Assembly: GCA_002840895.1 (NCBI GenBank)
Contig: PHCZ01000001.1
Location: forward strand, 414,278-478,277
Length of the DNA: 64,000 nt
Direction of reading: 5' to 3'
From: Bacteroidetes bacterium HGW-Bacteroidetes-8
GTDB lineage: Bacteria; Bacteroidota; Bacteroidia; Bacteroidales; UBA932
In this document: piece by piece, positions 2,601 to 58,835 of the stretch
How the letters are laid out: every line of letters begins with the position of its first letter
Numbering within the stretch: the first letter of the stretch is position 1
Position numbers and translations under genes: made by a program
Notes under the pieces: generated by a model
What the model was told of the DNA's origin: nothing
The model's database searches: none
The model's input: the letters and a program-made list of their open reading frames with translations, nothing else

Positions 2601-3548
2601 ATGGAAAATATCAAAATCTCTACAGCGCAGTTTGAATCCAGATCTGCAGACAAAGGTTACAACCTAGCAATAATTGAGAGACTATCTGCTGAGGCAGCCG
2701 CAGAGGGCTCCAATGTGATTGCTTTCCACGAGTGCTCTCTCACAGGATATACCTTTGCACGAAAGTTAAGTAAAAAGGAGCTTCTGGATATAGCAGAGTA
2801 TATCCCCGAGGGAGAGAGTATGAAAAACCTGACTGAGATTGCTTCGGAGTACAATATTGCAATTCTGGCAGGGCTCTTTGAGAAGGATAAAAATGGAAAT
2901 ATCTACAAAGCTTATGTTTGTGTGACATCGGATGGTGTTATTGCCAAACACAGAAAACTACACCCCTTTATTAACCCTCACCTTACTGCCGGTAACAGTT
3001 ACACAGTTTTTGATCTCTACGGCTGGAGATGTGGAATTCTCATATGCTACGACAATAATATTGTGGAGAATGTAAGGGCAACAAAGCTGCTTGGTGCAGA
3101 TATTATCTTTATGCCCCACGTAACAATGTGTACCCCATCCAAACGTCCCGGATCGGGTTTTGTAGATCCTAAATTATGGATTAACAGAGAGGTGGACCCA
3201 ACATCTCTAAGGCAGGAGTTTGACGGCCCAAAGGGTAGGGAGTGGCTTATGAGATGGCTCCCCTCAAGAGCTCACGACAACGGAATATATGTGGTCTTCT
3301 CTAACCCTATAGGGATGGATGATGACCAGCTCAAAAATGGCTGCTCTATGATAATTGACCCTTACGGAGATATTGTTGCAGAGTGCCGTAAACTTGGAGA
3401 CGATCTTGAGACCGCTCTAATCACCCCGGGAAAACTTATCTCTGCAGGTGGTTTTAGATACACTAACTCAAGAAAACCGGATCTTTACGGAGAGATTATC
3501 TCTAAAAGTCATAATCCGGTTCAGAAGATTGCCTGGATGGAGGATTAA
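2601..3548 (+). CDS. Carbon-nitrogen hydrolase (nitrilase) family protein
   Basis: FHECSLTGY, KHRKLHPF, GILICYDN: Glu-Lys-Cys nitrilase triad context. Confidence 0.85.
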   Translation: MENIKISTAQFESRSADKGYNLAIIERLSAEAAAEGSNVIAFHECSLTGYTFARKLSKKELLDIAEYIPEGESMKNLTEIASEYNIAILAGLFEKDKNGNIYKAYVCVTSDGVIAKHRKLHPFINPHLTAGNSYTVFDLYGWRCGILICYDNNIVENVRATKLLGADIIFMPHVTMCTPSKRPGSGFVDPKLWINREVDPTSLRQEFDGPKGREWLMRWLPSRAHDNGIYVVFSNPIGMDDDQLKNGCSMIIDPYGDIVAECRKLGDDLETALITPGKLISAGGFRYTNSRKPDLYGEIISKSHNPVQKIAWMED

Positions 3549-4429
3549 TCCCTGTCCGGCCTGTGACCCTGCCTGTACTCTCCGATTACCTTAAGGTTCT
3601 CGGTAATTGGAGTTATAGCATCCAGAGCCTGGCGATATCTTCTATAATCATCAAAAATCAAATCGGTATAAAAGAGATACTCCCACTCTTTTCCCACAAT
3701 AGGTAGTGACTGAATTTTTGTAAGGTTCATATCGTATATTGAGAGTACAGAGAGTACGTGGGAGAGTTTCCCTTTGGTATGCGGGAGGGAGAAGCAGAGC
3801 GAGGCCTTGTTTATAGTTTGTGGGGTGAGTCTCAGTATATCTTTCACCTTATCATTTGTTGCAATTATAATAAACCTTGTATAGTTTCTCTTATTACTCT
3901 CAACACCCTCTTTTATTATCTCCAGGTTGTACATTTTTGCCGCCAATTCGCTTGCCAGTGCTCCCACCCCTTTAAGATTTTCGTCCCTGATCCGTTTTGC
4001 ACTAAGAGCAGTATCTACAGAGTCGATAATCTTCACCCCATTTTTACGGAGCTCATTTAAAAAGAGATGACACTGCATTATTGCAACAGGGTGGGAGTGT
4101 ATCTCTCTTATATCACTCACACTCTCGCCGGGCAGAGCTAAAAGATTTTGTACCACTCTTATATACTGTTCTCCCACCACCGGGAGATTGCTTTCGTGAA
4201 TAAAAGAATGATTTTGAAGAAGAGAACCTGCGACCGAATTCTCAACCGCCACAATTCCACAATCTGGTTTCTTCTTTTGCAACTCATCAAACAGATCCGA
4301 AAAGGTATCACAAGGGACTATTTTAACACATTGTTTTTCAAAGAACTGTTTAGCAGCAATTTCGTGAAAAGCCCCGAATCCTCCTTGGATTGCTACGCTT
4401 ACCTCTTTTCTTGTACTCATAGTTTTCAT
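3545..4429 (-). CDS. pheA: Prephenate dehydratase with C-terminal ACT domain (start ATG at 4429 or 4420; the track start at 4432 is a TTG)
   Basis: VAIQGGFGAFHEIAAKQFF, GIVAVENSVAGSL, SNKRNYTRFIII; ACT region LCFSLPHTKGKLSHVLSVLSIYDMNLTKIQSLP. Confidence 0.93.
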   Translation of the reverse strand: MKTMSTRKEVSVAIQGGFGAFHEIAAKQFFEKQCVKIVPCDTFSDLFDELQKKKPDCGIVAVENSVAGSLLQNHSFIHESNLPVVGEQYIRVVQNLLALPGESVSDIREIHSHPVAIMQCHLFLNELRKNGVKIIDSVDTALSAKRIRDENLKGVGALASELAAKMYNLEIIKEGVESNKRNYTRFIIIATNDKVKDILRLTPQTINKASLCFSLPHTKGKLSHVLSVLSIYDMNLTKIQSLPIVGKEWEYLFYTDLIFDDYRRYRQALDAITPITENLKVIGEYRQGHRPDRD

Positions 4430-4440
4430 CAATTAAGGTT

Positions 4441-4469
4441 AAAAAAAAAGCCCCGAAAAACGGGGCCTT
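4441..4469 (-). terminator. Leader terminator (attenuator) upstream of pheA
   Basis: Minus strand AAGGCCCCG-TTTTT-CGGGGCTTTTTTTTT, ending 11 nt before the pheA ATG. Confidence 0.85.
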
Positions 4470-4489
4470 AATACTATTGTAACAAATGT

Positions 4490-4561
4490 TCAATAACATA
4501 TCAGCCCCTTTTGCGGTCCAAAAAAGAAACAGAAGAAAATGTATGTTGTTGAATTACTCAT
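4490..4561 (-). CDS. Phe-rich leader peptide of pheA (attenuation leader)
   Basis: ATG AGT AAT TCA ACA ACA TAC ATT TTC TTC TGT TTC TTT TTT GGA CCG CAA AAG GGG CTG ATA TGT TAT TGA = MSNSTTYIFFCFFFGPQKGLICY*; 5 of 6 consecutive codons are Phe, followed by a terminator and pheA. Confidence 0.85.
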   Translation of the reverse strand: MSNSTTYIFFCFFFGPQKGLICY

Positions 4562-4567
4562 CGGGTG

Positions 4568-4575
4568 CAAAGCTA
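4568..4575 (-). promoter_or_regulatory. Putative -7 box (TAGCTTTG) for the pheA leader transcript
   Basis: TAnnTTTG match ending 6 nt before the leader peptide ATG. Confidence 0.5.
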
Positions 4576-4582
4576 ATAATTA

Positions 4583-5938
4583 TTATTCATTATAGTAATT
4601 GTAGAAGAGAGCAATTGACTCAATCCCTTTAAAAAACTGACCAAGGAGATAACTCTCGTTTGGTGAGTGGATAACATCTCTCTCCAGACCAAAGCCCATA
4701 AGCAGAGGATTTGCATTTAGAATAGTCTGCAAATCTGCAAGTACAGGAATGCTTCCTCCACCTCGGCTCGGAACCGGTTCTGTACCATATACCTCACCTA
4801 TCGCTCTTGAGGCAGATTTATACACCTTAGATGAGATTGGGCAGAGAAAACCCTGACCACCGTGGTGAGGAGTAACTTTTATCTTTACTCCAACAGGTGC
4901 CAGAGAGATAAAGTGCTCTTCAAATAGTTTTGCAATCTTTTTGTTATCCTGGTTAGGTACGATTCTCATTGATATCTTTGCGTATGCCTTAGATGGGATA
5001 ACTGTTTTTGCCCCCTCTCCGGTATAACCTCCCCAAATACCATTTACATCAAGACAAGGACGGATACCTGTTCTCTCCATTGTTGTATACCCCTGCTCTC
5101 CGGTAACTCCGTCTATATCCAGAAAATGTTTATACTCTTTTTCGTCAAACGGAGCGCGCCCAAGCATCTCTCTCTCCGCTTTTGTGAGCTCAACCACGTC
5201 GTCGTAAAAACCTTTGATAGTAACCCGTCCGTTATCGTCAATGAGTTTAGATATCATTGTGGCAAGAACATTGATAGGGTTTGCAATTGCACCTCCGTAA
5301 TGTCCCGAGTGAAGATCTTTGTTTGGTCCTGTCACCTCAACCTCAAGATAGGCGAGCCCCCTCATCCCTACATTTATAGATGGTATTTTCTCATCTATCA
5401 TAGTTGTATCGGATACAAGAATGTCATCGCAACTTAGCATCTCTTTATGTGCAACTGCCCACTCAGGAAGACTTGGAGAACCAATCTCCTCCTCTCCATC
5501 AATTATAAACTTTACGTTACACTTAAGTTGATTGCTCTTAACGAGGTATTCAAAGGCTTTGATGTGCATAAATCCCTGGCCTTTATCGTCATTGGCACCT
5601 CTTGCATAGATTGCACCATCCCTTATCTCAGGCTCAAAAGGGGGAGTTGTCCACAGGTTGAGTGGGTCTGCCGGCTGAACATCGTAGTGAGCATAAACCA
5701 AAATAGTTGGTTTGGTTTTATCAATAATCTTCTCTGCAAATACAACCGGGTGCCCCTTTGTAGGGTATACATCTGCTCTGTCACATCCTGCCTTTAGGAG
5801 TAGTTCTACATATTTCTCAGCTGCTTTTTGCATATCATCTTTATGAGCAGCCATAGAGCTAATTGAAGGAATTCTTAAAAGCTCAAACAATTCCGAAAGG
5901 AATCTCTCTCTGTTCTCCTGAATGTAGTTTTTAATCAT
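4583..5938 (-). CDS. M20/M25/M40 family metallo-dipeptidase
   Basis: VYAHYDVQPADPLNLW, RGANDDKGQ, DGEEEIGSPSL, DLHSGHYGG. Confidence 0.92.
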   Translation of the reverse strand: MIKNYIQENRERFLSELFELLRIPSISSMAAHKDDMQKAAEKYVELLLKAGCDRADVYPTKGHPVVFAEKIIDKTKPTILVYAHYDVQPADPLNLWTTPPFEPEIRDGAIYARGANDDKGQGFMHIKAFEYLVKSNQLKCNVKFIIDGEEEIGSPSLPEWAVAHKEMLSCDDILVSDTTMIDEKIPSINVGMRGLAYLEVEVTGPNKDLHSGHYGGAIANPINVLATMISKLIDDNGRVTIKGFYDDVVELTKAEREMLGRAPFDEKEYKHFLDIDGVTGEQGYTTMERTGIRPCLDVNGIWGGYTGEGAKTVIPSKAYAKISMRIVPNQDNKKIAKLFEEHFISLAPVGVKIKVTPHHGGQGFLCPISSKVYKSASRAIGEVYGTEPVPSRGGGSIPVLADLQTILNANPLLMGFGLERDVIHSPNESYLLGQFFKGIESIALFYNYYNE

Positions 5939-26354: not shown

Positions 26355-26425
26355 GGTACCCTGGCCGAGCGGTTAGGCAACGGTCTGCAAAACCGTGTAC
26401 AGCAGTTCGATTCTGCTGGGTACCT
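26355..26425 (+). tRNA. tRNA-Cys (GCA)
   Basis: Acceptor GGTACCC/GGGTACC, anticodon stem ACGGT-CTGCAAA-ACCGT, T-arm GCAGTTCGATTCTGC. Confidence 0.95.
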
Positions 26426-58323: not shown

Positions 58324-58330
58324 GAAAAAA

Positions 58331-58655
58331 AGGTGGGTCTGTAAGCCGGATTCTGTACTTCTTTCGAAGCCTCTGTCATCTATCTGATGCAGCCTACCCC
58401 CCGGCATCGGGCGAGCAGCCCTCAATCACCGGTATATGTGGCCTTGCAGGAGACTGTTCGTACCCTCACAATGTCGCCATAATGAGTCGTGGGCTCTTAC
58501 CCCGCGTTTTCAACCTTACCTCACAAAAAGGCGGTTATTTTCTGTTACGATTTGCCTAAAGTTACCCCCAGCTGTGCTTTCCACAGAGTCTTGCTCTATC
58601 CTGTCCGGACTTTCCTCCCCTGCATAAGCAGAGGCGACAGAGCGACCCACCGGCG
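58331..58655 (-). ncRNA. rnpB: RNase P RNA (bacterial class A)
   Basis: Minus strand contains GGGGAGGAAAGTCCGGAC and CAGAATCCGGCTTACAGACCCACC; ends pair GGTGGGTC/GACCCACC; T-run at 58331-58325. Confidence 0.95.
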
Positions 58656-58703: not shown

Positions 58704-58720
58704 CACTGCATTAACATAAT

Positions 58721-58795
58721 GCTTGGGGGTGCCCTTTGGGCTGAGATCATACCCTTTTCACCTGATCAGGATAATGCCTGCGAAGGGAAAGCGAA
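58721..58795 (+). promoter_or_regulatory. TPP (thiamine pyrophosphate) riboswitch, THI element
   Basis: GGGGGTGCC...GGGCTGAGATCATACCC...CACCTGATCAGGATAATGCCTGCGAAGGGAA. Confidence 0.96.
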
Positions 58796-58835
58796 TCTCG
58801 TTTAACGTACCCCCCTGCAATAAAAATAATTAATA

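Follow-up and report, generated by a model that had tools for sequence, protein, structure and literature searches.

Leader-peptide attenuation is a textbook mechanism of transcriptional control that was worked out in Proteobacteria. The DNA analysed here, a stretch of 64,000 nucleotides referred to as the window, contains a stand-alone pheA gene from a member of the Bacteroidales that is preceded by a short Phe-rich open reading frame (ORF) and a terminator, and it raises the question of whether a mechanism of this kind controls pheA in Bacteroidota. The pheA leader is very probably a ribosome-mediated transcription attenuator that senses charged tRNA-Phe, as judged from sequence comparison and modeled RNA folding. 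The elements of the locus are as follows, from upstream to downstream.

4583 to 5938: M20 peptidase gene, upstream of the pheA leader region.
4568 to 4575, minus strand: putative -7 box TAGCTTTG of the TAnnTTTG type (sigma-ABfr), recognized from sequence and consensus.
4490 to 4561, minus strand: pheL leader peptide ORF, MSNSTTYIFFCFFFGPQKGLICY followed by a stop codon, kept in relatives.
4520 to 4537, minus strand: regulatory codon run TTC TTC TGT TTC TTT TTT (five Phe, one Cys).
4503 to 4508, minus strand: GGGGCT, 5' arm of the antiterminator outer helix and mimic of the terminator 3' arm, covarying with the terminator 5' arm.
4491 to 4499, minus strand: ATGTTATTG, 5' arm of the antiterminator inner helix, overlapping the pheL stop codon (folding, covariation).
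4492 to 4490, minus strand: pheL stop codon UGA.
4471 to 4479, minus strand: CAATAGTAT, 3' arm of the antiterminator inner helix (folding, covariation).
4462 to 4467, minus strand: shared arm GGCCCC, whose partner is either 4508-4503 (antiterminator) or the terminator 3' arm.
4441 to 4468, minus strand: intrinsic terminator AGGCCCCG-TTTTT-CGGGGCTT with a T tract at 4449-4441.
3545 to 4429, minus strand: pheA, prephenate dehydratase (Pfam match to PF00800), stand-alone.

The pheL ORF consists of 23 codons, of which five (codons 9, 10, 12, 13, and 14) encode Phe. The T tract comprises nine T residues and ends at 4441, and the pheA ATG (4429) lies 11 nt further on. An earlier note on this DNA had described the leader, the Phe run, the terminator, and its spacing from the pheA ATG, and the sequences and coordinates it gave match the DNA. 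The downstream neighbor of pheA is a convergent carbon-nitrogen hydrolase gene, hence pheA is stand-alone. The TAnnTTTG consensus of the -7 box was taken from PMC7366714. This motif is found no more than 70 nt upstream of 105 of 135 homologous leaders, as against 37 of 675 shuffled sequences (5.5%), and its distance to the ATG is usually about 23 nt and is 6 nt in the focal species. Since only 6 nt separate the box from the ATG, the leader mRNA probably has little or no 5' untranslated region, with transcription predicted to start at or within a few nucleotides of the leader ATG.

The terminator competes with an alternative structure. The pairing first described between a GGGGC segment (4508-4504, 11 nt past the last Phe codon) and GCCCC in the terminator arm (4466-4462) forms the base of a longer predicted antiterminator. 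This antiterminator is an 18-bp helix consisting of 6 bp (GGGGCU/GGCCCC), a 3 x 3 internal loop, and 12 bp (AUGUUAUUG/CAAUAGUAU plus three further pairs); 9 bp of the 12-bp inner helix were counted in relatives. Taken alone, the antiterminator has a predicted energy of -18.0 kcal/mol and the terminator one of about -14.1 to -14.7 kcal/mol. When folding is masked by a ribosome with Phe codon 9, 12, or 14 in its A site, the antiterminator is predicted, and moving the mask to the stop codon leaves the terminator as the only one of the two to form. In a single-sequence prediction with no ribosome, the leader pairs over the antiterminator arm, again giving the terminator. These predicted states correspond to the classical three-state logic of attenuation, and the stalling and release that the earlier note had envisaged are reproduced in the masked-folding model. 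The locus has features of the attenuator class, namely an ORF with a codon run and a terminator before pheA, together with a mutually exclusive antiterminator, as judged from prediction and covariation, and, in masked folding, the appropriate ribosome geometry.

Attenuation requires the coupling of transcription and translation. The following course of events, from the start of transcription through ribosome stalling to termination in vivo, is inferred, as is the amino acid sensed. Transcription would begin at the leader ATG or shortly upstream of it, with a ribosome translating the leader in the wake of the RNA polymerase. When Phe-tRNA is short, the ribosome would stall in the Phe run with its leading edge just short of GGGGCT (4508-4503); the long antiterminator would then form and use up GGCCCC, and the polymerase would read into pheA. 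When Phe is plentiful, the ribosome would reach the UGA at 4492-4490 and cover both 5' arms of the antiterminator, so that the GGCCCC/CGGGGC terminator would form and transcription would stop. In an untranslated leader, the RNA is predicted to pair with itself, a state in which termination would again be favored.

The conservation of these elements was followed by searching for PheA in the genus, family, order, and class of the focal genome as well as in named genomes, and then reading the upstream regions. Of 154 non-redundant pheA loci, mostly from Bacteroidales, about 130 have a Phe/Tyr-rich leader and a terminator upstream (about 128 and 134 under two detection rules), and the same test gave no hit in 1764 random windows of 650 nt drawn from the contigs concerned. 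Among Bacteroidia outside the Bacteroidales, 12-14 of 20 pheA genes have the leader and terminator. Named carriers include Bacteroides fragilis, B. xylanisolvens, Parabacteroides, Alistipes, Dysgonomonas, and Paraprevotella; the B. fragilis genome examined has a mixed Phe/Tyr leader, MNVFTFTYYFFFYFYFSQKVEREFVCIK. The earlier note had made its reading depend on conservation in close relatives, where comparative alignment finds the leader ORF and the Phe run retained, and covariation-aware alignment finds the same for the terminator and the covarying antiterminator pairing. Its proposal of a pheL-pheA-like attenuator in a Bacteroidetes-type genome is supported by these data, but the element is widespread in Bacteroidia and not peculiar to one genome.

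The leaders pair with their own terminators at a mean energy of -13.8 kcal/mol, compared with -9.3 kcal/mol (sd 0.21) when terminators are swapped, and the former value was reached in 0 of 2000 permutations. The gap between the last Phe or Tyr codon and the antiterminator segment has a median of 11 nt (IQR 9-12), about as far as a ribosome usually extends downstream. In an alignment of 14 sequences, 91% of the antiterminator cells are paired with 14 double-change cells versus 3.9 in shuffled alignments, and slid versions of the pairing reach 40-50%. The corresponding values for the terminator are 92% paired cells and 7 double-change cells versus 2.3. The inner helix of the antiterminator is paired in 92.9% of cells, with changes on both sides at 4 of 9 pairs, and alignment column 10/67/83 shows three-way covariation. 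The leader was not detected at 7 of 17 stand-alone pheA loci. Three of these seven, all from the genus of the focal genome (L071 in G012, L074 in G021, and L076 in G020), consist of the M20 gene, a terminator, and pheA with no leader ORF, and at these loci we read the switch as lost.

In most Bacteroidales, pheA is the first gene of an operon with an aminotransferase gene, aroF (DAHP synthase/chorismate mutase), and tyrA, and the leaders of such operons contain both Phe and Tyr codons, as in YYFFFYFYF. Tyr codons were counted as a share of Phe plus Tyr codons in the best 8-codon window of each leader, leaving out the M20 C-terminus ORFs at the three leaderless loci, and operon content was judged over about 6 kb downstream. 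The Tyr share is 363/814 (45%) at tyrA-linked loci, 36/105 where pheA is accompanied by the aminotransferase or aroF without tyrA, and 5/58 (9%) where pheA stands alone. The share at stand-alone loci is lower than that at tyrA-linked loci with p = 1e-7, relatedness being only partly controlled; a looser definition of the run, in place of which the 8-codon rule was used, gave p = 1e-5. Stand-alone leaders fall into 5-6 independent groups on the PheA tree. Three loci lacking tyrA (L110, L164, and L191) have kept their Tyr codons, with the shared genes still present. Two complete Phe/Tyr units of leader and terminator occur in tandem upstream of pheA at nine loci (L106, L114, L122, L129, L135, L136, L138, L140, and L221), and two such units stand in series before the tyrA operon at L258.

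The focal genome has both halves of a divided operon. Contig C9 holds the aminotransferase-tyrA-aroF operon (L226, 2880-6061), split from pheA and preceded by a leader of its own:

L226, 2734 to 2867, plus strand: tyrA-operon leader MISHNATFFYYYYFFYSKRGGCVIV followed by a stop codon (run FFYYYYFFY), with antiterminator and terminator.

The layout of this leader, GGGGC...GTTATTG...GGCCCC, is the same as that of the pheA leader, so that the genome pairs FFCFFF at pheA with FFYYYYFFY at the tyrA operon. A second aroF (contig C16, L227) is without a leader. A Phe-pure pheA leader together with a Tyr-rich tyrA-operon leader is also present in G008, G023, G024, and G003 and, outside the genus, in G169, G179, G243, and G189, the Tyr excess being weakest in G189. 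On the evidence of these leader sequences, we read the ancestral form as one that senses Phe and Tyr, with the Phe-only form accompanying the separation of pheA from tyrA, and we read the focal pair as one bispecific switch that split into two specific ones along with the operon, likely through leader duplication as judged from the alignment. The focal element would then be a Phe-specialized descendant of the Phe and Tyr leader of pheA-aminotransferase-aroF-tyrA operons in Bacteroidia, and the detached tyrA operon would have a Tyr-rich sister leader, either retained or acquired.

These observations bear on a simpler account, in which the hairpin is a mere terminator of the M20 peptidase gene, the Phe-rich ORF a chance product of a pyrimidine-rich spacer, and the pheA promoter unregulated. 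Such an account would suit the three congeneric loci that have a terminator between the M20 gene and pheA and no leader ORF, as well as a window scan that pairs the terminator with the M20 C-terminus too. However, the leader, its spacing, and the antiterminator are kept at loci that differ in the sequence preceding pheA, the pairing covaries, the mix of Phe and Tyr codons tracks operon content, and the detached tyrA operon carries its own Tyr-rich copy. The pure form of this account is rejected on these grounds, and we regard it as very improbable next to the attenuator.

Leaders with other codon runs were sought with a covariance model, R1, built from the leaders of the genus, whose matches favor leaders sharing the GTTATTG motif, and by direct inspection. 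Three were found in the focal genome:

Contig C17, 246744 to 246905, minus strand (L319, G000; R1 match): Asn-run leader MIKINNNLFNNLNDNYIRAGRLLL followed by a stop codon, a GGGAGG antiterminator segment, and a terminator, before asnA.
Contig C20 (L326; direct inspection): His-run leader IHSIHHHHLQLH / MNLYSNIHSIHHHHLQLHGRLDRLFVYMR, then a terminator, before hisG.
Contig C8 (L327; direct inspection): Leu-run leader MNRQISIIQSLLLLGFYKSGGATVVH (SLLLL), then a terminator, before leuA.

The asnA leader is orthologous in G008 and G017. In relatives within the genus, a Met-rich leader precedes a methionine-synthase-like gene, Trp-run (WWW) leaders precede trpB-like genes, and a His-run leader precedes hisG (these further Met, Trp, and His leaders are at L317 in G012, L322 in G003, L312 in G016, and L307 in G010); the Trp and Met leaders each hold a segment complementary to their own terminator. 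Tandem Tyr leaders (YYYSYYYF and YYYSYYYY) with terminators stand before a tryptophanase/tyrosine phenol-lyase-like gene at L303 and L304 (G004 and G016), two genomes in which pheA was not found. Several R1 matches above E = 0.02 proved to be ordinary terminators. Because the leaders for other amino acids were found partly through sequence shared with the model, they constitute leads and not a census, and a combined alignment of Phe, Tyr, Asn, His, Met, and Leu leaders did not have the quality needed to build a second covariance model. We lean slightly towards the view that Bacteroidia possess a modular attenuator family with a common layout of promoter, antiterminator, and terminator, in which exchangeable codon cassettes evolve with operon content and the bispecific form splits when pheA and tyrA separate. 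The cassettes would, on the same modest confidence, comprise the ancestral Phe and Tyr form, the Phe-only, Tyr-rich, His, Leu, and Asn forms of the focal genome, and the Trp and Met forms of relatives. If this is true, the family takes in leader peptides that sense Tyr, Asn, and Met, of which we know of no earlier description.

A second account keeps the leader peptide and changes what is sensed: the nascent aromatic peptide would stall the ribosome in response to free Phe or Tyr or another small molecule, in the manner of TnaC, and not in response to tRNA charging. The peptide is aromatic and hydrophobic, and in the focal clade its length and its tail (KGLICY) are fairly constant. Sensing of codons fits better because the peptide outside the run varies freely across the class, the runs may be of Phe, of Tyr, or mixed, and the same layout is found in the focal genome's leaders for His, Leu, and Asn; we consider peptide-dependent stalling as improbable as the first alternative. 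Least probable of all is a riboswitch or T-box-like RNA that binds a protein or small molecule and governs the terminator with the ORF incidental, since, although mutually exclusive hairpins are also typical of riboswitches and members of the genus show good conservation of the inner helix GUUAUU/AAUAAU, no Rfam family (T-box included) is matched at the gathering score, conservation outside the ORF is confined to the two hairpins with no aptamer-like region, and codon content tracks the regulated pathway.

At gathering scores, the Rfam search of the pheA leader locus returned no family, and the same holds for five homologous loci; permissive scores gave chance-like matches alone. Elsewhere in the window, Rfam identified a tRNA (26355-26425, plus strand), RNase P RNA class A (58326-58653, minus strand), and a TPP riboswitch (58715-58805, plus strand).

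The closest known system is the enterobacterial pheL-pheA attenuator (RF01859, Phe_leader), which likewise has a Phe-codon leader, a terminator before pheA, a competing antiterminator, and masking from the stop codon. The focal leader differs from it in promoter type, in its near-leaderless start, and in its antiterminator, and its relatives mix Phe and Tyr codons and also control tyrA and aroF. The focal element falls outside RF01859: its covariance-model score is 26 bits, the gathering score being 55, and this match (E = 0.016 when 221 bases are searched) is no better than chance-like ones to unrelated families. Mycobacterial poly-cysteine attenuators resemble the focal leader in having a leaderless small ORF in which codons for the amino acid under regulation follow one another; they differ in that they concern cysteine, occur in actinobacteria, and are unrelated in sequence. 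Bacteroid-trp RNA (RF01692) is a cis-regulatory RNA from Bacteroidetes that, by its name, lies before trp genes; it has no match at the locus, in the focal genome, or in relatives within the genus, and a Bacteroidales genome further removed gave a single match below threshold. Within the phylum, PMC9723704 reports clues to leader-peptide attenuation in Flavobacterium psychrophilum and other Flavobacteriaceae, with structured 5' elements upstream of pheA and hisG, the one before pheA being conserved and without an Rfam family. The pheA element shares the phylum and the gene of the focal leader and belongs to a different order, and the main text contains no analysis of codon content, of Phe/Tyr mixing, or of dependence on the operon (PMC9723704). 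The Flavobacteriaceae pheA element is probably homologous to the focal leader. No report of Phe/Tyr or Tyr leader attenuators was found in the literature searched, the coverage of which is incomplete. The type of mechanism is known, and the Phe/Tyr-bispecific, splitting version of Bacteroidota appears to be undescribed, the Flavobacteriaceae pheA element aside.

These leaders would place attenuation widely in a phylum whose sigma factor and promoter code are different and in which Shine-Dalgarno sequences are little used, the leader ORF being predicted to begin very near the 5' end of its RNA. If the use of such attenuators is conserved, transcription and translation would be closely coupled at pheA-type genes in Bacteroidota. 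The repeated natural splitting of Phe/Tyr operons, with codons that follow the genes, amounts to an evolutionary test of codon sensing, and it supplies ready-made pairs of putative switches, one specific for Phe and one for Tyr, for Bacteroidales of the gut and the environment, relatives of Bacteroides fragilis included.

The earlier note had also assigned an ACT domain to PheA, implying control of the enzyme by Phe. The domain falls below the Pfam cut-off, although the C-terminus aligns end to end with the ACT-containing PheA 2qmx. The ESRP motif of the ACT domain is replaced by QSLP (residues 237-242), and I237, Q238, S239, and P241 are invariant in an alignment of 13 Bacteroidales PheA sequences. 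This conserved replacement suggests that Phe feedback on the enzyme may differ from that on ESRP enzymes.
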